A stretch of DNA of 64,000 nucleotides. Source: Dipylidium caninum. Lineage: Eukaryota > Platyhelminthes > Cestoda > Cyclophyllidea > Dipylidiidae. Position numbers and translations under genes: made by a program. The number at the start of each line of letters is the position of its first letter. The stretch's first letter is position 1. The stretch spans positions 1 to 64,000 of the forward strand of contig QEYB01001217.1 in the NCBI GenBank assembly GCA_017562135.1. Reading direction: 5' to 3'. The notes below the pieces were generated by a model. That model saw only the letters and a list, made by a program, of their open reading frames with translations, searched no databases and was not told the origin of the DNA. Shown here piece by piece: positions 2,587-61,500 of this stretch.

Positions 2587-3560
2587 AACGCTTCAGCCAC
2601 TTTCTGTGGTGCTTTCCTTCCCTTTAGCTCGCGTCTGCTGCTCCGCCATCACACTCACGTAACACCTCCCCAGTAATCAGGAGCTAGTGACATGTTCAAA
2701 CTGCTCCCATCAACCCTTGGGCAACCACTTCATTCTCGGTTACACCTTCTATTCGACAGGTGTAGGCCAATGTTCGATCTACCCTCTGGGACATCATTGT
2801 AGAGGACACCAAAGTTACTACTTATTTTCATCTATTCAATAAGATGACGCGCGAATCGCAGGTGCCCTCGACTAATTACTCATGAACCAGTGAAACAGAA
2901 CTGGTTCTTTCACCACCCTTCTTATCCAGCGTGCGTTTGTGCCAAAGTATACCTTGCAGATACTTCAGGGGACTACGCCAAATTCCCCTGCTTTCGTGTT
3001 TAATGGGACTTGCATTCTCCTCCCCCGCCTCATCTTCTGCCTTGCCTTTCATCCCCCCCTTTTATCCTAAATCCGTGTTTTGCGAGATGTCAGACTGCCA
3101 TTGCTCAGTACCCTCACGTCAGTTGAGAGCTCGACGATACTGCACTCACGAACACTTGTCTGTACGACAGAGCGGTCGTTCTGAGCAGCACGCGTCCACC
3201 GAATGTAATGAGTACTACAGTCGAGGAGCATTAAAGTAGGTGGCATTGCACACGGGTGATGGATGTGTCAGTCCGTCAAGGCGATTTTTTGCGGTATATG
3301 GAATACCTAGTCACCGGGTCTGTGGCTGCCCCACCTCTTCAACACATCTTGTTCACTCGACACACCTTCCTACACTGCAATGCACATGCTGGAACCTCCG
3401 AAGCTGGTGAGGTGAATCTGCGAGAATTTGCTACACTCATGTCACCGAAAATGGCCGATTACGTGACTTCAAAGTCCCGTTAACGGCCTCAGATGCTCGC
3501 CAGTGCGACATCGAGTTGGCAGCGCTCGTCGTCCAGCGCCCTTCGACAGGATGAAGTGAT

Positions 3561-5410
3561 TTAATCATTCTTAATATGTTAACAGTATGTGAGGTGTGCG
3601 CGCTTCTACAAGCTCTACCACAGTTCTCTCATGCCTCTCCTTCACGCCTTGTCCTGTTTTTTTACTTGTGGATAATAAAATAAAGAAAACCAAAAAAATG
3701 AACATATATTGTGGAGATATAAGTAAGTAGGAGAGATGTTAGCGTGTTAAGGCATGATGGAAACTGGAAAACCGATGGCCGAGATGAGAACCATTCTTCT
3801 GCTTCTCTCGCGCACCAAATGTTAACACCATGTGGAAAGGCGAGCGTCCAAATTTTGTAAGCATGCATTCATACGGGCGAAGAGACGTTGACTCACCGAC
3901 CCCAAAGAAGATTCGCTATTTCGTCCACATTCTCTTATCCCTACGCTGGCGACCGGTATTTCATCAAACTGAGGGTCAAGGTGACCTGCACCAAGCATGC
4001 AAGACTACTAATATCCTCCTTCCGCCACATGCAGAAGCATCCGGTGATGTCGGAGAGAATTGCGCGGCATCGGGGTCCAACAGCTGTTCCCGTCACTTAC
4101 TCCAACGCCTCCGAGCTGTTGCAATATGAAGGCGTGGGAAGAAAGTTGGCTGAGTTGTAGTGTTGCCTCCTTACAGAGGGCTTCATTCGCCTACAGAATG
4201 GACGGCAGAAGGCAGCCTTTGTTGCTATGCCTTCACTGAGGTGACCATGGTTTAATGCGATTTGAACGTGTTCTCGCAATGCCAAGATAACTCAGGTCAT
4301 ACTATGCATGCGTCATACCATGCCATGCTGCCACAGTCACTGTGCCTTCTAAGGATGGTTCGGGAGAAAGTGATGGAAATCAGTTGTGCAGTTGCGACGT
4401 GTTCAGAGGGCACAAAGATAGTGTTGGCGTGTCACTACCGACGGAAGTCTGCGCCCTCATAGGCACTTTCGCATGAAAACATTGCTTCTCATACCGTATT
4501 GGTGCGAGGGGCGCAAGTGCTTTTCGAAATGACCGCAGGAGAGCTATTGCAGAATGAAGCGTGAGGAAACAATGGATTGGATGAGGACAGGAAGAGATTA
4601 TTACACAATATACGGCCACATCTTCTCCTTCCAATCTTCTGCACCTCTTCTAGTCATTCATTTTGCCTTATTTTCCTTCCGAACTTTATCAGAAATAGCC
4701 TCCGCTTGCGGCTAATTAATTTTTCATCACTTTCTCCAATCGCTGCGACTGAAATGTCAGTTTAGGGCAAAGGGGGTGTTGACGTTGTTGTCCCTTACGT
4801 TATCCTATCGTAGCGCATGTGAGACGGTGAGAGTACACGGTGTCATTTTGGAGTAGAAGAGGTGGGTGGTGATGGGAGAAGAGCATAGATAGTTGGAGAT
4901 CGTGGAGCATGGCAGATCATTGCATGAAATGGCCACGGGTGGTGAGCGAGTATTCTCGAGTCGCGAGGACCTTTCACCCAACACAACAGAGACCAAGAAC
5001 CTTTTGCATCAGCACTTGTATTGCTCCCATGATGGTAGTCTCGCATGGGACAGGCTCGACTACTATTTGCTACTCTTCCATACCAGATGGGCGCAAAGGG
5101 GTATAGAAAAGGCAGACAGTATTCACCCTGGCAATGTAGCCTATCATAGTCAGAAGGCGTTTAGATTGACTTGGGTCTGGAGATACGTGCTTTACGCTCA
5201 TTTTTGTCGTCCTCCTGTCGCCCCATCACAGTGCTTACCTACCGCCCCTCCGCCTTTCCGCCCCTGCGCCCCTCCTTTCCATCTCTTCCCATCTCTCCAT
5301 CACGCGTTCACTCCACAGGAACCGTCCACTGCGATCTCAAGATCGTCCAATTTGGGAGGTGACCTTTCGAGCAGGGCCGAGGTTTTCAGGCAGTCTATGG
5401 AGGCGAACGA
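3561..5410. other. Mosaic repeat DNA left of X, no named gene
   Basis: The left part shows no similarity that I can place. From about 4800 to 5340 it resembles two other places: 4900-5060 resembles 1134-1300 and 41555-41720, and 5110-5310 resembles 8150-8330. The second match ends in a pyrimidine-rich run followed by CCATCTCTCCATCACGCG in both places. An ORF at 3888-4160 (+) reads smoothly for its last 60 or so residues, but it matches no family I know and has no second copy to test it against. Confidence 0.5.
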
Positions 5411-47001: not shown

Positions 47002-48146
47002 TCACCCCGGATCCAACTTGACCGTTGTCTTGACGAGGCTGTTCTTTGGAAGACTCGAGCTATTACGTCTACTGCGATTAAAAAGGGGACTTTGTAGTTT
47101 CTCTCCACTCGCGCGCGATGCTCCAATTTGCCTCAAACAGGCAGAAGGGGAACCCAGTTTGCGGAAAGCCGGATGGTTAGCCTTCACTAAAGTGTAATGA
47201 AACGCCCATCGGATTTGCGCAAACTCATAATCTGTGAGCAATTTACTATTCAATTGTGGAGAATATGGGATTAAAATGGCGTTTTGACTACCAGCCAAAT
47301 TGCAATTTCATAGGGGAGCATACGAATTTGTCATTTTCCATATCACGCGCGTGAGATCTTACTCGATTAAAAGTAATTTTGCGAATTCGTCTAACAATCA
47401 CTCTATTTCCGCAAACTTTTTTGTTTAGAACAACTTTCATCTCATGCTTATTTGTTTAGGGCTTGAAAAGAAAACGTATTTATGTTGCCTTACTTCCCGA
47501 TGGTGGATTCGTCGCCTCGTAGTCTCAGCCGCTGACTGAGCATCGGCATCCGTAAACACATCCAGCCGCTTTACCCTATTAACTGACAAACAATCTCCAC
47601 CCTTAAGAAAAATTCGTTCCACATCATTTTGCACCCAATAAAGTGAGATTTTTCATTTTTGTAACGTTCAGGATGCACTGGACACTTGACAAATCCTCCC
47701 GCACATGTCCCTTGTTGTAAATAAACACGATATCAATGCAAAATAATATCTTGTGGCCATTTTCCAGAGGAAATATGGACATATACTTCATTCAATTCTC
47801 TTCACTGTCGCACAGCTAAATTGGCCACGGAAATATCATTGTCTCGATTTATAAAAGAATATCAAGTAACAGTACTCCGTTAATGAATAACCGAGGGCGA
47901 CCATAATTTTTTGTTTTAAAGGGAGAGTGCTCACGGCATTGCGCAAGGGAGTCAAAGTGGAAGGTTAACAAACCGGCCGTGCAATTGGACACCCACCAAG
48001 ATAAGAAGAGCTACAATAATGAATGGCACGGGGAAGAATAAGCCGGCAATAAGCGTCACGAAGACGGCATGCAGCAGATCCAAATACATCTTGAGGGGGA
48101 GTCTGGGGAAAACGCAGCCCTCTGCTAGCACCACCACCGCACCGTC
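47002..48146 (-). CDS. Candidate minus-strand gene, possible membrane protein
   Basis: Three pieces have coding character and splice signals. At 48146-47952 an open segment follows an acceptor (CAATCAATAG); from Met at 48089 it encodes two hydrophobic stretches (LLHAVFVTLIAGLFF, PFIIVALLILVGV) and stops, unless a donor GTGGGT after LLIL is used. At 47601-47494 a 108-base stretch, phase 0 at both ends, lies between TTTCTTAAG and GTAAGG and reads GGDCLSVNRVKRLDVFTDAD and AQSAAETTRRRIHHRE. At 47186-47002 a stretch after a good pyrimidine tract and TTTAG ends in a stop. The last junction is out of phase, so either a piece is missing or these do not form one gene. No family is recognised and no poly(A) signal was found. 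Confidence 0.3.
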
Positions 48147-48735
48147 CTATTGATTGCGATTTGTTTGAATGGCGTGGTGACAGGGCGGCAAGGCAGGGTG
48201 AAGTCTGGTGTGTTGTGCTAAAAAACCTTGACAGGCTACTTTTAATTCTTTTTCATCTCCTTTTTTCCCTTCCAACCATATTTTGTACCGGCAAAATGGG
48301 AATCACTGATTACGCGGTAGTGCTATCGTAACGAGGTGGAGTCCATTAGTTACCATCTGCCGTAAAGATGAGATTTCGCCTTTTTCATGGGAATGTTGGA
48401 AGAAAAAAAAGCCAAGACGATTTGTATCTTAATTTAATGGCTTATACGGTCCTTAAACCATGCCTAGGGTCTAATAAGCGGATTTCCTTTATGTTTTTCG
48501 GAAAAATGTCTTAATTTACAGGGCACTTTAATGATAAAGGCTTCCCGGATGCCGATTGAGAGTCCACTCATTACCATTAAATTTCCTAAGACTCCCATGA
48601 AAAAATGCTCCCTTAACCTGGATGCTAGATAGAACTGTAGGACTGTAGATGATCTCAGACGATGCGGGTTCTACATATCTACGAATCAGCTAATCACACC
48701 AAATGAAGGCAGTTGGGTGTTCAAATTGACTAGAA
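48147..48735. other. Intergenic, nothing recognised
   Basis: AT-rich sequence without ORFs, repeats or RNA genes that I can support, up to the 28S-derived fragment. Confidence 0.5.
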
Positions 48736-48747
48736 GCGGGAGTAACC

Positions 48748-48801
<54 letters not shown>
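48736..48801 (+). rRNA. 28S rRNA gene fragment carrying the R2 target site
   Basis: About 66 bases match the universally conserved part of 28S rDNA, starting GCGGGAGTAAC and containing ACTCTCTTAAGGTAGCC and GTGACGCGCATGA. The canonical R2 insertion point TTAAGG|TAGCC falls between 48762 and 48763. I see one difference from the usual sequence (CATGAC for TATGAC). Flanking 28S sequence is absent on both sides, so this is not part of an rRNA gene but a displaced fragment, joined on the right to the mobile element. Confidence 0.9.
48759..48791 (+). repeat. Left copy of 33-nt 28S-derived direct repeat
   Basis: Starts AAGGTAGCCAAATGCC and ends CTAATTAGTG; identical to 49181-49213. The two copies flank the 379-bp element like a target-site duplication. 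Confidence 0.9.
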
Positions 48802-49180
48802 CTCCTGCGGGGGTCATGGTTGCGGACCCGGGCGCCTCCTCGTGGCGACCGCCGGGGTCGGAGGGCCTCCCCTCCCATCTAAGACCTGGGTCACCCCCCG
48901 GGGACTCAAAGGGTGGCTCTTATCCCGGGGTTTATCCGGCCACAGTGCTGGGGCTGAGGTCACTGCCTCAGTAATCCTCATCTGGGTCTGATGGGAACGG
49001 CGGATTCTCGAGTGGACGCTACCGAGGTTGGACGTCTTCGGACTCCGCAGGGATCAAATATGCGTGTGCTTACCCCCGAACCTGCCAGATCTCTCTCTCA
49101 CTTCTTGGACTGCATTCTGTACTGCTATTGTTGTTGTGTTTATGTGTTGTACGTGCAGTTGCATCCAAAAATAAATGTTC
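48802..49180 (+). mobile_element. Short R2-class-like element without reverse transcriptase
   Basis: A 379-bp GC-rich insert between two pieces of the 28S R2 target region. Its 5' end folds as an HDV-type ribozyme, the usual 5' processing device of R2 elements. Its 3' end is CCAAAAATAAATGTTC joined directly to AAGGTAGCC of 28S. Full R2 elements encode a protein of more than 1000 residues with zinc fingers, reverse transcriptase and endonuclease; nothing of that is here. It therefore resembles the short internally deleted R2 derivatives known from insects, or a short non-autonomous element using R2-type machinery. Two frames overlap the ribozyme (from 48770 and 48789), but they run through structured RNA and are probably not translated. 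Confidence 0.75.
48809..48892 (+). ncRNA. HDV-type self-cleaving ribozyme
   Basis: The nested double pseudoknot can be traced by hand. P1 is 48809-48815 GGGGGTC with 48847-48853 GACCGCC (six of seven pairs; one G-G mismatch). P2 is 48825-48832 GACCCGGG with 48885-48892 CCTGGGTC (eight pairs, one G-U). P3 is GCC 48834-48836 with GGC 48844-48846, closing loop TCCTCGT, nearly the loop of the HDV ribozyme. Loop CC and the GG after P1 can form P1.1. P4 is GGAGGG 48860-48865 with CCCTCC 48870-48875. The strand before P2 reads CTAAGA, with the catalytic cytosine expected at 48879. The order, the 84-nt length and the core residues all agree with the family. Cleavage would fall before 48809, seven bases after the 28S match ends. 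The P1 mismatch may lower activity in this copy. Confidence 0.85.

Positions 49181-49213
<33 letters not shown>
49181..49213 (+). repeat. Right copy of 33-nt 28S-derived direct repeat
   Basis: Identical to 48759-48791 and directly adjacent to the 3' end of the element. 28S similarity stops after ATTAGTG, where genomic sequence starting GGAGAACTG follows. Confidence 0.9.
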
Positions 49214-50001
49214 GGAGAACTGATGGTTTACACACAACTATGAACTGTGGTATGCATATGAAGAACGAAAATTAAGAACTTCAAAGTCACCTATACTCTC
49301 AACTAAGGTCAGGAATGCTGGAGCGAATTTACGCGAAACTAGGAATAGCATCGCAACCAAATGAAACAATTTGCCTTCAAAAGAGAGGGCATATTTGAAG
49401 GAAAATTAACGCTTTCTGAAAAGCTTTGATGCACTGTTGATTATATTCATTAAGTGCTTTTCCCTAATTATTGGCTTTTATCTCATGCTCTCAACATTTA
49501 ACCATGCATTGCAACTTGCGCATAAACGCATCTCCATCTTATGCGTTCAAGAAACCTAAGTCAAACGTCGACACCCATGACACCATCACAAGAACCAAGT
49601 TGAACAGTTGTCCAGTCGGCAATATCGAAATGTAACCTCAAAAAGTGCATGGATAAGATTCTAGTTAGTATAACGCTAAACAAAATCCACACTGAGAGTT
49701 CCTATTCAATACAGGTAAAAGGATTCCGAAACAGTAGTATCGTGAACCATTAATAGGCAGTGAATTTATTGTAACATTTAGCTTACTAGGTCCCAAAAGC
49801 GGAGGATCCTCAGTATCTTACTATAACTGGCTCTATGCTTAGCTCTGATCTATTCCATTTTTACTTTTCTTACGACAAATTTATCGCGCGCACATAAATC
49901 GGCCCAGGTTTTAATTCTAATCAGAGAAGTTGAAATTAATTTCAGTCACATGATTATTCTCTACTACTAATTAATTTCTACTTATTCTATTCAATAGATA
50001 T
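49214..50001. other. Intergenic, nothing recognised
   Basis: AT-rich sequence between the 28S-type element and the poly(A) signal of the channel gene. No ORF, repeat or RNA gene can be supported. Confidence 0.5.
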
Positions 50002-53300: not shown

Positions 53301-56300
53301 ATCAACGCAAAAACTAAAGCTGATCCATAGTGAATAAACATTAAAGTTTGTGTGAGTCTGATCACAGTACTCAAAAACCATATTAGAATGTCTAATTCAA
53401 CGTACTTAAAAAGCGAGTTGCCCAGAAGTCTAACAAAATGGCGAAGGTATTGGCAGCGCTATTCACGTTCGATGAAAAAATGCTCATAAAATGGGATGTT
53501 AGGTGGGGACTGTGTAGGAAGATAGCATTTAAAATACGGGAAATGTATGAACGAAGAGGACAGTAATTTGACCAAACGCATTTGACCCCTTAACTTGAAT
53601 TCGGACGTATTAAGGGTACAAATAAATGCCAACATCTTCTTTATTAATTATTTACCAGATTGGAATAATTGCCAACCAATGTTATGACAAATATAGCTCA
53701 GGGTCATTGTGGTGAGAACCTATGACCTGTCAAGAATGTCAGTGAGCCGTATTTAAATGGCATTACTTGACCCAATACCTGGTTGTAGTTTAAAACTTTG
53801 GAACTGAATAGAATTCAAACTTGGTAACGCAAAAATGATTAAAGTTTAAAATCTTGGGAACGAATTATATACTTAAGAGGAATTTATTTGCCTCCATAGC
53901 CTTGTATTTCCAATATCTTACAACCATCGTTAATTCACATGTTTAAAACGAGATGTAGAAAAATATGCTTTCAATAGTATCAGAAGGTTCAAAATCGTCG
54001 CTATTTTATTCCGTAAAAAAACCAAACTGTATGAAATGGATAGGCAAAACAACAAGACGCAAAATTTACTGATCTTTTACATTAATTTAAAAGTGTACAG
54101 TCCAAAACTAGCCAAATTTGCGAAAACTAGAAACAATTTACATATTTGACACGGTAAGAAGGCCAGACAAAGTGATAATGAAAGCGATATTACCTCCATA
54201 TCTATAGCTTTAAAATAAGAAAGAACCTACTTCTCCACATCACGACGTCTAAATTATCACTGGGAGATATGCCACGCATATTGGGGATGGAGATAACAGG
54301 CTGCGGTGATGAGAAGCTTCCGTAGAACCAACGTACGGTAGCAGCTCGCCAGCAAAGGACGAAAGGGCATCACGAGAGAAATCGTAATAGATGAAAGATA
54401 GAGAGTGAAAGGGATTCCAATACATCCGAAGATGATGCAAAACACCTTGCCAGAGGATGTCTGCGGCACAATGTGCCCGTAACCTAAAAGATAATAAAAA
54501 TTAAGCCCCAAAAGGGGCAGGGTTATTAATACCCCGTGATAAACTATACAACGTAAGTCTTTGAGTCGATTAAAGGTTAATAAAACCGCGCCCGTGGCCC
54601 TAAAGTAACGGAACTTTTTGTTCGTAAAAAATTCTGTTTTTCTTCCTCTTACCACTAAATGAAGGACAAGAAACAAATGAATTAGCGAACTTAAATAACA
54701 AGTGCTGCTTAAGGTAACTTGTCGAAACTGGGAGCCGCCGTGATTCATCGAGGTACTTTCAGCAATAGTTCTCTGCTTCTTTATGTAACCATAGAAAAGG
54801 CTAACCTTCGTGTCTCCACTATTCAAGATGGGCTGTTCATCGGGCTAACAGAAACCACTGTATTGACGGGAATCGGCATCCGTCGGAGATAAAGTTCCCA
54901 CTCACAAACGCATGAGTACCCCTCCATCCTATAAATGAATGTGACATCGCCATGCCATGATTGAACTGAATGAATCGGATCATCGCGGAGTGTATCTCGC
55001 CATCGACTTGCGCCTCCGTTTTCAACTTCTCTTCGTAAAACTGGCATGTTTATTACCTGTGCTCATGCACAATTATAGTTCAGTGTGGTCTAAACTTTCA
55101 TCAACCAGTAGGTCACTTTCAGCAAATGCGATATATACCATCGCACTCCTCTCCTTTAGTTTTCGGAAGATACAATTTTTCTAATCTAACTTACACATTC
55201 CGTGCGCGATACTTCAGTAGGCAATAATGAACTTAATCACAAAAGCTTATAACTTTGTTTTTAAGTACTACGAAACTGGCTGTTACGGCGGTGTTAGTGA
55301 TATCAATTTCAGCTTGACCTCTCCATGTTGTTTAGGTATAACACTTTATGATTCTGGTCCCTTATTAAAAGCAATTTTGTCTCCTTTCTTTAATCAAATC
55401 AGCGGACGATGATTGCCCTAGTGACCGATAGTTTCATTTAAACGTATATTCTAAAGTATACTTATTTGTTCTAAACTGGTATTTCATGAAAACTTCCTTG
55501 TAATTTTTTTACTTGATATATCGAAAAGTGCGACGTCATAAGCCTTCAAAAACACGATATTAAGAGGGTTGGCTCTAAAGCATTAATAGTTAAAAAAGCA
55601 AGGAAAGTTCCTTACTTCAAATTTAAGGTATGATAACAAGTGAAGGCGGACTAGAAGCGAATAAACTAAGGTGATATGGACAAAAGTGTTCAACGGAAAA
55701 CTTGTCTGACACTGAAATATGCTCAATTTCGGTATAAATGTGCATCAAAAGGGTTAGACGAGTACCTACATGTTGTGGCGATGTGACAATATCAAGCAAA
55801 AACAAACACAGAAAGTTTAGAAAGCGAAGTAAAAACTATCGAAGTTTTGAAGACAACGTCGGTAGGAAAAGGCTTCATTATCTCCTCCCAAAAGCACTCT
55901 TTTATTCAATTAATTCTCCGCATTTTAACATGCATTATTTCCGCAAGAGACAATTCTTGTGACCTGTGAAAGCGCACCCCGCTCCCTCTAGATTTAGGAC
56001 ACCAATGTTCAGCGAACCACGGCTGCATAGTTTCTTGGCGCAAAATGTTTATCCGATGAAGTGAGTTAGGAGCAAGTGGAAGGCCCCAATATTGGTAAAT
56101 TATAACAGCTTGATGAGACGTTCATAGTTGGCCTAGCCCACCTCGAATACCTTCAATAAATATGTCAATTGAAACGCTACAGTAAGGCTAAACCACAGGA
56201 AAAAATAAGTAGGCAATTATAACGTCACTGTTAGCAACACTGGATTTAGCAGACAATAAGGCCAGGGCAAACTGCTCTGAGAGCACAAATTGAACAATTT

Positions 56301-58773
56301 ACAAATGTTTCGAAACCACTCTACTTTATTTAGTGGTTACAACATTTAACATGTATCTCAGAAATTGCAGCCTTTGACTATGTAGCACTGCTTCAGGCAT
56401 TTAACTATTACTTCCAATCACTCAGTGGCGTCAACTATTTCCTAAGTGAGTGAAACAGGAAAAAGCCGCCTAAGGAAATATTTTTCAGGAAAATTTACCA
56501 CATCTTCCACAGCAACAGTTAACATAACATCAAGTCTGCGTACGAGGTGACTTTTCAATTTCCCGAATAGTCAGACAAGTTTCTAAATTGCTGGATTAAC
56601 AAGTACTGGGGCAGTACAATGCACGAAGGGAAGAGGCTATGAGGTCGGCGGGACAAAGGGACGGACAGACAGTCGGACACGTGTTAAAACATACAGAATG
56701 GATGAGTCATACATGCGTAAACACACGTACCAGATGAGTGACAAAATTACCAAGACAACTGCGAGCATGACTTGAATGTGAGAGAGCACAACTGAATTAT
56801 TACGATGGACGATCGCGCACCCACATTCATGTCATCTTCCATCTTACGTGTCGTCGAGCGATGAAGCTCGGATTTATGAGTAGTAGATCCTTAAAAGTTC
56901 ACTCTGTTTCGAGCATATTGGCCTAATTGTTCGAAGTAAAGTGACAAATTGCTACTTCTACAAAGGGCCTTTAGAAATCAACGCGCATTTCTTTAAAAAA
57001 GTGGGTCGAGTCCTATCTTACATTCTACATGTGACATCAAACAGCAGTTTCGAAAGCTTCCTATCATAGCCCGAAATGACTACACCGTTCGCTGCATAAA
57101 ATGGCCTAGAGAATATTACAAACACACGTTGGAGGAAATGGTTTCAGAAATAACAGCCATTTCGACGAAATAAAATAACTATCAAGTAAGACCATGCAAT
57201 AATTGAGTAAAAAAAGAAAACTGATCTCAAGTCATTTTCCCACTGACATATACTGAAGTATCAACGCCGAAATAAGCTCCTCTTTTTAAAATCTCTCGAA
57301 TTTAAAGCCAGGATGACATTTTTTGAACAAATGACTAGACAAAAGGCCATTTAACTAACCGATAGTCGTGACAACCGACATGCAAAAGACAAGTGCGCTT
57401 CCAAAGCTCCAATTTTCAGAATTCCTCAGGCGAACATCTGCGAGGCGATGGACAAATTCAGGGGTTATCACATTTTGATCTGATATTCGTTGATTATTTG
57501 TATTCGAGTGATGGTTAAGGCGTTCATCGGAGGAGATACTATATACACCGACCAACTCTGAGTGAGGTCCCTTGACTAAAGGGAGATAAAAGTGCTCTCT
57601 AGTAAAAAACATCTCTAGAAAAAGATAATAATTTGAGGAATATCTTCGAGTTGCACATAAATTAATATGTATAAGACATTACTATAGTGAAAGTATGCTT
57701 ATGAAGGAACCAAAAAGGTTAAGACGAATGTTAAATTAACATTTTAAACCGTAAGGAGAGATCACGAGCAAATTCCCAGACGTGTACAAGGTCCACTTAG
57801 TGCAAATGCACTAAAAACTAATAGGTAATAGGTGCAGAAAGTGGAAATTTTCATTGAGATACTATTGAGTGCCACACTTATGGTGGTATGCAATATCTTA
57901 ATGGTTCTTCTTAAGACGTATCATAACAGCAGAGCATAAAGTAAACTTACGAATTTCAAATAAAATCAACACCATAAGGTGACGAATTACTTAAACAGAT
58001 CCGCCAATGTGAAAAAAATATAACTTTTAATGGCCTGAGAATCTCGTCAAGGGTTCTGAGACCACAACAGATAAAAAATAAATGACTGATGTACAGTTGT
58101 TACCTAAGAGGCATTTGCAGCCCTCCAACAGTTGAGTAATTTTCTTGTCTAGAATTTTGGATTGCTGATCGGTTGGTTTTTCGATTAATTGAAAACAGAC
58201 TGCGCCAAAACATATAAAACATATGTACATAACTAGGGTAAATAGAAAATTCACAGAAGGACTTTTCCAACAAGACTTTGAATTAGCCCACATTTTAGAG
58301 GCCCTGGGACTAGACCATAGATTTAACTTGGGACATGTAACGGAAGGCAATCGCCGTGGTACGTTCATTCCGTCCACCCATGAGTGATTATGTGACAGTT
58401 GATTTATATCCTTTTTGCACCGCTTTTCTGCATTGGCAAAGTTGCAATGATGTGTGGATAAAGCGTGTGATGAAGTACTTCTAATTTCCTGAGCGAGGAA
58501 GCCATGACCACAAGATGCAGGGACATTAGGTTGGTGCGAAGACGAGTGAAGCTGATTGTGGTCATGATTCAAATCTTGTGACAGCTCATTGGGAGACGCT
58601 TGATTGAAGGTGAAATCCGGGTCTGATTCACTGGATGAGATTATAAACTCGACGTTTTCGTGGTCCGAACCGCCGACAGAGGGAAAGTCTTCCGTGGAGA
58701 AGCAATCTTGGTCACCAACATAAGCATCAACCTCGATGTTTTCAGGCGTCTCGCCGCCGATGTTGATAAACAT
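50133..58773 (-). CDS. Two-pore-domain potassium channel (K2P family)
   Basis: Six exons on the minus strand: 58773-58104, 57614-57360, 54483-54261, 53228-52820, 50839-50516 and 50308-50133. They encode about 686 residues. K2P channels dimerise in the plasma membrane and carry background potassium current. The diagnostic plan M1-P1-M2-M3-P2-M4 is complete: M1 at about 174-197, first filter TTIGYG near 306-311, M2 322-347, M3 548-571, second filter TVGFGD near 592-597, M4 622-645. The order of GYG then GFG filters is typical of the family. Four of the five junctions join in phase with good splice signals; the exon 4-5 junction needs a weak donor or an extra small exon. Unusual are the 173-residue N-terminal tail rich in Ser, Asn and His, and the 200-residue loop between M2 and M3, while the C-terminal tail is short. 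The start is the first in-frame ATG; the frame extends only 16 codons further and lacks another ATG. I cannot assign a subfamily. Confidence 0.92.
50516..50839 (-). CDS. K2P exon 5: M3 and second pore
   Basis: Starts after TTAATTTTCAG. It encodes a basic stretch (LREKLRALRKSRSTRARLY), M3, then NWSYIDAVYFCFISLTTVGF and GDFVPG. The donor is G|GTAAGT. Confidence 0.92.
52820..53228 (-). CDS. K2P exon 4: long M2-M3 cytoplasmic loop
   Basis: Follows acceptor CACTCCTAAG in correct phase. All 136 codons are polar and Ser-rich with several basic clusters (SSLRRKSKSLTS), suggesting a disordered, possibly phosphorylated loop. The strong donor CAC|GTGAGT leaves phase 0, but exon 5 needs phase 1; a weaker GT four bases later (GTGA|GTTATG) would restore the frame. 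Confidence 0.75.
54261..54483 (-). CDS. K2P exon 3: first filter and M2
   Basis: Starts in phase after TTTTAG and completes GYG, then HIVPQTSSGK and M2 (VFCIIFGCIGIPFTLYLSS). The in-frame stop after HISQ is avoided with donor CCCA|GTGATA, which leaves two bases that join exon 4 as CAG. Confidence 0.85.
57360..57614 (-). CDS. K2P exon 2: extracellular cap and first pore helix
   Basis: Preceded by TTATCTTTTTCTAG. It encodes the rest of the cap, then NSENWSFGSALVFCMSVVTT and I, ending one base into the first Gly of the filter. The donor is G|GTTAGT. An intron within the GYG codons is a common K2P gene feature. Confidence 0.9.
58104..58773 (-). CDS. K2P exon 1: N-terminal tail and M1
   Basis: Codons 1-223 plus one base. 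The tail is acidic near the start (ENIEVDAYVGDQD), then polar with several His and Cys. M1 reads NFLFTLVMYICFICFGAVCF. The exon ends in the cap region (LLEGCKCLL) at donor G|GTAACA. Confidence 0.9.
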
Positions 58774-61500
58774 GGCGAAGAATAGGACACGATAATTGGA
58801 ATAAGGATAGGCAGCCGTCAAAGATTGCGTATGATATAACCTTTAAGACTAGTTAAACAACTGCAAGTAATAATTGTAACGTATAACTGCATCGTTTTTT
58901 TAAAATTTCCCATGCTAAAATTATTTAAATTTTTGGCATGAGTAGTACAAGCTTTCTTAGATCCGTGGCTTAACAGAATGTCAGTGCCAATCAGGATGAA
59001 TGCACGAAAATAGTTAAAGGCGCTACATTTACCCTCCCCCCACATAATTTTACGATTTAACGAGACATCTATTGATTTTGCTATTACGGCGTAGTGATTT
59101 TATACTCGTTGATATCAAAAACCCAGATTCTGGAATTTTAAGCGCGTTCCTCTGCTTCTTCTCCTTGTTGGTTCTCATACCCTAGAGAGATACCAATAAA
59201 AAACCTTCTTGTGATGTATCGATCTTTTATGCATCTTATGCCCTAACTACGCGCCTGGGATAATAGATACACAATTTTTCTATTGTACCAAACCCATTTA
59301 ATTAATGCCTTTGCCTGTTTGTTTTGATGCTCGCGTGGTGTCTAAACTTATGAATTTGGATGTAGTGGATACTGCCCTTAACCCCACTTTACCAAGTTTT
59401 CACAAATCATATTAAACGTGTGCATAAACATCTTTTTCGACTAAATTTGGCTTGGTCTATGCACTATCAGGGCTCTCACTACTTTAGAGTGCTAAATAAT
59501 AATTTTTTTGTTTTTGAAAATTACTCCCTTTACATATTTGTTTTCGCAGAATATCTCTCTTGCAAAATCACTCAAGCTGCATAGTAAGTGTTGCCATTCA
59601 TCATTTTCATCGAATGATCTAATTGCCAACATGTTCAAGTAGGTGACAAAACTGCCATTGCCTGCACGAAGAGGAGTTGGTAAAATCACGTAATTCAGGA
59701 CGCTAACTGTTCAAAAAAATCATTCCGATTCACAAAAGACGGGTTAGCGTTAAATAAAGCGATGTCTTCATCCTTCGGTGTCTGAAAATCGTCTTGAGAA
59801 AATTAAACAGCTTCTACTGAATGTGCTCCACCAAAATATTGGTGCACCAAAAAAGGTTCTGTGGTATGCAATAATGCGGTAGTTATTCACCCCGACAGAA
59901 TTCAGGGAAAAACGTCTCCAAACCGGAAGCGTATTTATATTCAACACGTAAAGAGTCTGAGCCGCTCGAAAACAAATTCACTGTGAATTAGTCTACACGC
60001 AAGTAAAATTGGAGACCGCTTCTGGCTGCTACGCAGAGGTTGTTCGGACACGTTTTTGCATCATATTGTCATACATATTTGCTCACCGAGACAACATTCC
60101 TAATCCTAGGCCCACTTGTGTTCGGTAAATAAAGTTAACTAGTCACAGATATGAAAGTAGCCAAATGTTGAGTGCATGCCGCAGACTGTTTGAGCCACAA
60201 CATTCTATACAATACCAAAAAATAGCCGCGCACTCACAAAAGCTTATTTATTCAACGACGGTTGATATGTTCTTAAAAACCAATTCGTTAACTAAATTAC
60301 ATTTCTATATCTCACTGGAAAAAAGATTTTAGCGGTTATGCAAACTCGATGGAAACATCGTTAAGGCATGAGTTAACAGGAAGGTTTTTTAATGTGGGTA
60401 CATTGTGGGTAAGTAAGTAAAGAGTTCAAAATTGACGTTAGCAAGGAGGCAACCGATTGGAGGTCAGAGAATTGATGAAAACGAAGTCACCGCCAGCATA
60501 TTCCATTCACCTCCCCTCTTGGTGCAAATATATATTTGAATAGGTAACACATTTAATTAGAAAAACATTTTACAAAGTCCGGCGGACAGTTTATTTTCGA
60601 TTTACTCATGCGTGACTGCATCGGTCATTGAGATATGCCTTGAGTAGCGTGGCAACCAGTGATTAATTCATTGTCTGAAGTGAAAGAGAAAGGATTATTT
60701 CCTGGCGTCATTAATATGGAAATAGAGAAATTTTCAGCAGTCTCTCGCAAATATGCTGATGAAGCAGAATTTTTATGAAAACACCCAGTTCATCGTCGGA
60801 TGAAGGATGATTTCCGTGAGAGAGGATCAGGAATAGGCAAAATGAAAACAAATACTTTCCTTCTGCTCACCAGCTATAATTACCATGAGATAGGTGAGAC
60901 ATTTTTGTGGAAGTGACACAATACGATTAGGAGAAATGATTGATAAAGTCATCTTATAATACAGGGAGAATGTCGAGCATTAGTAGAGATGTTATTTGTG
61001 CTGGAGTATCTGCCGACATTGACAAAATTGAAACTTACGCCTAGTTACAATCTTTGTCTCCATGGTTCCGGTGGACGACCAGGAAATCATACGTGAAACG
61101 CAAGAGGGAGAACAATCACCGCTTAACTGATGAAATAGTAACAACTTGTGGTGATGATTACTTGCTGCGGCTTGGAAGTTTCAATTTTGAAAATAAACCA
61201 TCAGTTGATTGCAAAGTACCAAATAGCTGTTGTGAGCAAAAAGGTGCGAAGTAGTAAATCAGGCTATAAGAAGGTGATTTATATGCCTCGTGATGGCTTA
61301 TGCTTGTAAAAATATAAATAAAACGGTTCTAATTCCGTTTCAAACAAAGGAGAAAAGAATCCCGATGGCCGTCGGGATTAAAAAAGTTCAAGACTAATGT
61401 TAATGTGACATATTAAGACGTCGGAATGTGAAATTGAGGCACTTCGTATCAAGAGTCTGTGAAATATGTATGTCAATGTGAAAAGAGCAGGACTTTGTGT
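58774..61500. other. AT-rich region upstream of the channel gene, no gene recognised
   Basis: Probably holds the K2P promoter and 5' untranslated exons, but nothing identifies them. A minus-strand ORF at 59492-59689 and a plus-strand ORF at 61054-61254 contain short protein-like stretches without a family match or a clear splice context. Confidence 0.4.

Follow-up and report, generated by a model that had tools for sequence, protein, structure and literature searches.

A probable non-autonomous R2 element in the tapeworm Dipylidium caninum whose HDV-like ribozyme appears to borrow a P1 strand from host 28S rRNA

The window, that is the whole stretch of 64,000 nucleotides analysed here, very likely contains a cestode non-autonomous R2 element (SIDE) inserted at an ectopic position, whose RNA would have been cut within host 28S rRNA at position -28, counted in nucleotides from the R2 site (AAGG^TAGC in 28S). 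What can be read directly from the sequences is that the copy belongs to a family, that its core and its tail are homologous to R2, that the 28S heads of the family have their upstream limit at -28 and that host 28S at this point fits the P1 helix of the ribozyme. In the window copy (Table 1) 66 nt of 28S precede the body and 33 nt follow it. A blast search of window positions 48001-50000 against two genuine 28S stretches (L027 and L071) found no further 28S, and the copy therefore lies outside rDNA. The longest ORF that overlaps the body has 94 aa and runs beyond the end of the element, in line with the original description of a 379-bp element with no protein, here outside rDNA. Because of this location and because the first P1 base is missing, the window copy is probably inert, and we regard it as probably a dead fossil.

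Table 1. Parts of the window copy; 28S positions are counted from the R2 site.
Feature	Position	Strand	Remark
28S head of element RNA	48736-48801	+	28S -27 to +39; 97% match to genuine 28S L027
P1 5' strand as left in the window copy	48736-48739 (GCGG)	+	first G (-28) replaced by A at 48735
Hairpin CATGACTCC-TGCG-GGGGTCATG	48797-48818	+	joins 28S head to body
Body of the likely non-autonomous R2 element, 379 nt	48802-49180	+	no long ORF
Ribozyme-like core	48806-48895	+	match of same-genome R2 ribozyme model, E 6.7e-7
P2	5' strand 48825-48831; 3' strand 48886-48892	+	82.5% of cells paired in copies having P2
P3 and loop L3 (TCCTCGT)	48834-48846	+	P3 48834-48836 with 48844-48846; L3 48837-48843
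P1 3' strand CCGCC	48849-48853	+	apparent partner of 28S GGCGG at -28
P4 stem-loop GGAGGG-CCTC-CCCTCC	48860-48875	+	48860-48865 with 48870-48875
CTAAG with candidate catalytic C48879	48879-48883	+	role putative, by comparison with R2 and HDV ribozymes
Common 3' end of short copy class	48971-48981	+	just past stem CTGAGG/CCTCAG; blast ends at query 238-248
R2-like 3' tail ending CCAAAAATAAATGTT	49081-49179	+	score 34 against R2 tail; shuffles 7.1 +/- 2.6, largest 18.5
28S 3' of tail, 33 nt	49181-49213	+	28S -4 to +29; unrelated DNA beyond

The HDV ribozyme (RF00094) is laid out with the helix order P1, P2, P3, P4 and a loop L3. The core in the window shares this helix order and L3, but differs in that it is not significant in Rfam and has R2 ribozymes as its closest relatives. 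A covariance model was built from 12 aligned R2 ribozymes (R2 5' ends) of the same genome, with zero element copies included, and it gave a single match at E<=1 in the 64-kb window (42.9 bits, E 6.7e-7, the E-values of the search tool being rough). Against Rfam, nothing in the window was found at gathering level, and HDV_ribozyme scored 17.4 bits (gathering 50) at E 9.1. A control set of 11 R2 loci and three element loci likewise had no HDV-family match in Rfam at E<=5; since the R2 loci behave in the same way, the Rfam negative is uninformative. The covariance check that had been proposed thus came out negative with Rfam, which is a weak test here, and positive with the R2 model of the same genome. 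Judged from sequence, the ribozyme-like core is real. The model match and the many relatives in the genome support the earlier view of an R2-related HDV-type core, and P2, P3, L3, P4 and the CTAAG strand all stand where they had been placed. The helices of a nested double pseudoknot (P1-P2-P3-P1.1-P4) are present in the family RNA when 28S supplies a P1 strand, with P1.1 and the candidate catalytic C placed by position only. The ribozyme would then span about 48735-48892, for which the predicted length of 84 nt is too short.

COX1 of the assembly shows 89% identity to its counterparts in Cloacotaenia, Taenia and Echinococcus, which places the host among the cestodes. A 480-nt query gave at least 42 matches in the organism's own 106-Mb assembly, some of them plain 28S; this count is a lower bound because 40 of 75 candidates were scored in the genome search. 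A diverged copy used as query gave at least 32 matches, partly new, so the search for other copies suggested by the original prediction did reveal many relatives. The matches range in identity from 87% down to about 65%. The loci retrieved comprise 39 from the first search (among which L027, L029 and L037 have 28S only and no element), eight further element loci and 11 R2 5' ends. A younger and an older subfamily differ in P2 (GACCCGG/CCTGGGTC versus GACCTAG/CTAGGTC) and also in the hairpin loop; the P2 difference is C-G versus U-A (8 CG, 4 UA and 4 UG cells). Compensatory changes had been expected to mark the stems, yet in the hairpin, P2 and P3 covariation among copies does not rise above shuffles: nine cells changed on both sides against a shuffled mean of 7.5, the covariation score was 0.135 against 0.142, and 79.2% of cells were paired against 79.0%. 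Such a lack of covariation could be expected if the copies are decaying. Sliding the 3' partners drops pairing to 28-46%, for a tested structure that was taken from one of the sequences.

The family has two kinds of 3' end. Long copies end in ..AATAAATGTT or similar, followed by AAGG or further 28S. A short class (L017, L019, L021, L022, L028, L031, L038 and L041-L044) ends at the common point given in Table 1 and has no R2 tail; the sequence beyond this end differs from site to site except in a duplicated group, L038 and L041-L044, whose flanks are similar. Global scoring ran beyond the end in L022, L031, L038, L041 and L044, and the ends are therefore those given by blast. The short class may represent an additional RNA, about 245 nt long, that was itself inserted. 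At the flanks of 16 copies of both classes, target-site duplications of at least 7 nt were not seen. Segmental duplicates occur among the copies (L041-L044; L035, L036 and L040; L010-L015). One 5'-truncated copy, L016, adjoins 808 nt of downstream genuine 28S (91.6%) at the R2 site, in an assembly that represents rDNA poorly; this places the element family in rDNA at some time.

R2 itself is represented in the genome by reverse transcriptase, C-terminal and zinc-finger pieces; an intact autonomous R2 was not identified in the assembly. The reverse transcriptase piece of L071 lies in genuine 28S and matches PDB 8gh6 at 8.9e-18, the R2-named chains 9nl2 and 9dou, and RVT_1 at 3.8e-21. At this locus (contig C685, about 3263-3882) a 5'-truncated R2 joins the 28S after GACTCTC and has a reverse transcriptase frame without stops over 200 codons; further along, the contig contains a long stretch of N. 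L078 has an R2 ribozyme followed by a C2H2 zinc-finger piece. The loci L010-L015 (contigs C351, C793, C337, C15 and C605) are near-identical duplicated units, each with an R2 reduced by internal deletion to ribozyme, zinc finger and tail, and then the short element. When the tails of three element copies were compared with five R2 tails, all 15 comparisons exceeded the largest of 300 shuffles, which preserved base composition only. As both ends, ribozyme core and tail, are those of R2, the element is best described as a short R2 derivative (SIDE). The 28S segment +1 to +39 that heads the element occurs in none of 12 R2 5' ends.

The 28S heads were aligned for 33 loci, namely the window copy, L078 and 31 of the 39 loci first retrieved; left out were L011-L015 (near-duplicates of L010), L033, L039, L046 and L079-L086. 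L027 and L029 (genuine 28S), L037 (28S joined to another 28S part) and L009, L010, L016 and L018 (head joined to an R2 tail, or truncated) were dropped from the count. The remaining 26 loci, 25 of the element and one of R2, have a 5' flank that is not 28S, and their heads start between -27 and +13; none starts upstream of -28, and the window copy begins at -27. The genuine 28S loci L027 and L029 match out to -239 and -234. Independent insertion events number fewer than 26, because L041-L044 share one flank, to which that of L038 is similar, and L035, L036 and L040 share another; in these last three the aligner was upset by a deletion and the start, judged by eye, is near -26. A 28S block is present in five of 11 R2 5' ends, beginning at -28 (L088), -22 (L090), -24 (L093), -30 (L095) and -29 (L096), and is absent from the other six. 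The starts of L095 and L096, which are aligner positions and correspond to L099 and L100, are read as including one or two letters that match by chance. Across 21 loci, 178/629 letters agree with 28S at -60 to -29 and 231/315 at -20 to -6. At -28 to -26 the agreement was at chance level (19/63), few copies reaching the very end, and -28 is for this reason an upstream limit and not a pile-up. Such a limit is predicted by cleavage at -28 with incomplete copying, not by cleavage at 48809, and the ectopic copies probably still show where the element RNA starts.

The P1 helix of the original prediction joined 48809-48815 to 48847-48853 and fits poorly over 25 aligned copies, where its seven positions pair in 8, 21, 4, 18, 17, 22 and 17 copies. 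Host 28S GGCGGGA from -28, counted as constant host sequence, pairs with the same 3' strand in 25, 25, 25, 25, 24, 0 and 3 of the 25 copies; the 28S helix of the element is thus five pairs only. Against P1' of the R2 copies the corresponding counts are 12, 12, 10, 12, 12, 10 and 8 of 12. From -60 to 48831, GGCGGGA is the sole 7-mer with five contiguous pairs to P1', the next best having three. It therefore appears that the ribozyme borrows the 5' strand of P1 from host 28S rRNA, though this is a fit and not a proof, as CCGCC may be conserved for a different reason. The strand GGGGGTC at 48809 sits instead in a stable hairpin with CATGACTCC, in which CATGACTCC/GGGGTCATG reach -15.4 kcal/mol with flanking bases and -14.0 alone, and 72.6% of cells are paired over the 25 copies; in L026 the hairpin has -14.2 kcal/mol, a value attained by 7 of 200 shuffles. 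A possible long-range pairing between 28S AACTATGACTC and the element was considered at coordinates one off and carries no weight here. A self-contained ribozyme of 84 nt that uses the earlier P1 and cuts at 48808/48809 is very improbable. It does form six of seven pairs in the window copy, which lacks the first pair of the 28S helix, and at -10.1 its helix is somewhat better than the -9.4 of the five-pair 28S P1. These energies are crude and computed with canonical 28S letters, and hairpin and 28S P1 together total -23.4 against -10.1 for the earlier P1 alone, which would disrupt the -14 kcal/mol hairpin. Its third pair is lost in 21 and its first in 17 of the 25 copies; the mismatch of 48811 with 48851, noted earlier as a single one, is present but for the same reason not private to this copy. 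Moreover, 28S upstream of 48809 is retained in copies at unrelated sites. Hence a 5' end at 48809 is unsupported, the P1 fit and the head limit both indicate 28S -28, and the earlier P1 helix and cleavage site are, on these comparisons, very probably wrong.

Two other explanations accept the 28S heads and account for them differently. The heads could be the ends of rRNA fragments, formed without ribozyme cutting, on a SINE-like RNA moved by another retrotransposon. The scatter of head starts without a pile-up at -28 and the missing R2 tail of the short class agree with this, and cleavage of the element at -28 is itself our inference. Yet the upstream limit coincides with both the usual R2 cut site and the P1 strand, R2 heads in the same genome have about the same limit, the tail is R2-like and target-site duplications were not seen, and we hold this explanation to be improbable. 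Still harder to credit is a single event in which an autonomous R2 lost its interior, founded no lineage and was copied by other kinds of duplication: some copies are indeed segmental duplicates, but the body and the +39 head recur between different flanks in copies with identities as low as about 65%, and that head was found at 0 of 12 R2 5' ends.

For an ectopic SIDE released by cleavage at -28, we propose the following sequence of events. Master copies, presumably at the R2 site of 28S genes, would be transcribed together with rRNA. The R2-type HDV-like ribozyme, with 28S GGCGG as the 5' strand of P1, would cut the joint transcript at -28. The released RNA would consist of 28S -28 to +39, the 379-nt body including the ribozyme, the R2-like tail and some downstream 28S. 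An R2 protein acting in trans would then bind the tail and copy the RNA by target-primed reverse transcription; the homology of the tail and the absence of target-site duplications are indirect pointers to such mobilisation. At 28S genes the head of the cDNA may pair with the target and so make the junctions precise, following the model of PMC3774820, while at sites other than 28S the 28S head would stay behind as a tag. The segment +1 to +39 may stem from a past imprecise junction, perhaps aided by the shared word ATGACTC, and would since have been part of the RNA. A more far-reaching picture is tentative, and we rate its chances at somewhat below even: an R2 derivative would have persisted as a SINE-like lineage over a long time and spread outside rDNA driven by R2 in trans, with a 28S strand essential to its ribozyme and a second RNA of about 245 nt. 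In that case it would be the first R2 SIDE outside Drosophila, and its ectopic copies would record the ribozyme cut site in the genome.

The closest known system is the R2 SIDE of Drosophila willistoni, described in PMC3414825 as an element of 529 bp with an R2-type ribozyme at the 5' end, an R2 3' end and no ORF. The cestode element resembles it in these features and in an unrelated centre, and measures about 445 nt including the 28S head. The Drosophila SIDE lies at the R2 site, has R2-like junctions and is cut at the junction (PMC3414825); in contrast, the cut would here be at 28S -28, the head contains +1 to +39 and the copies are mostly outside rDNA. The suggestion of an undescribed non-autonomous lineage therefore needs to be divided: the kind of element is known from Drosophila (PMC3414825), and it is here found in a cestode. 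According to PMC3774820, R2 RNA is cleaved most often at -28, with P1 taken from 28S starting there, and silkmoth, earwig, planaria and others have ribozymes that cut at this position. The element shares with these ribozymes 28S GGCGGGA as P1 5' strand, the L3/P3/P1.1 layout and the catalytic C at the candidate position, but they belong to full R2 elements, whereas the element has a P1 of five pairs and a 39-nt 28S piece in a hairpin. For the 22-bp piece of downstream 28S that earwig R2 has at its 5' end, a similar origin from an imprecise junction has been argued (PMC3774820); the piece here is 39 nt. The flatworm elements R2NS-1_CSi and R2NS-1_SMed are R2 relatives that also inserted outside 28S, but these are full families, and short derivatives are not mentioned in the available text (PMC5035012). 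SIDEs have been put forward as one model that might apply to the degenerate R2 of stick insects (PMC4370867), and the term 'non-autonomous' had no match in the available text of PMC5035012, PMC13188248 and PMC7650587. Among the matches listed for open-licence PMC, only the Drosophila R2 and Lepidoptera CR1 SIDEs were relevant, an R2 SIDE outside Drosophila did not occur (Repbase lies outside this search), and no flatworm paper had R2 as its subject by title. In open-licence PMC, no paper was found that combines R2 with Echinococcus or Taenia, and no title on 28S-derived SINEs named R2.

The R2 protein is under development for gene insertion into rDNA (PMC11331408 and PMC11371274), where both the formation of the RNA 5' end and its guiding effect on insertion matter. 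If our reading is true, the RNA 5' end is kept in the DNA of off-target copies, so that the cut site would be readable from a genome without RNA. R2 SIDEs would then extend from Drosophila to tapeworms, R2-type RNAs could seed genome-wide repeats bearing a 28S tag, and short 28S matches outside rDNA may be the heads of retroelements.

Some further loci are described for completeness. On the minus strand of L037, around 1160-1060, 28S from about -25 on is joined at GGGA to another 28S part, which ends GTTACCACAGGGA; a repeat of 4 nt (AAGGTAGGTAGCC) is present at the R2 site of this locus. The locus may stem from a 28S RNA, without the element, that began near the R2 cut site and was copied into the genome. 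In the diverged copies L039, L084, L085 and L086 a GCAAATTACCC-like sequence stands just 5' of the ribozyme instead of the 28S head, and this presumably resembles a conserved 18S rRNA word. A plasmid search of the window found nothing, as expected for a eukaryote. Elsewhere in the window, on the minus strand at 54257-54844 and 58027-58842, ORFs resemble exons of a two-pore potassium channel (K2P-like), and the second of these has one relative at 41%.
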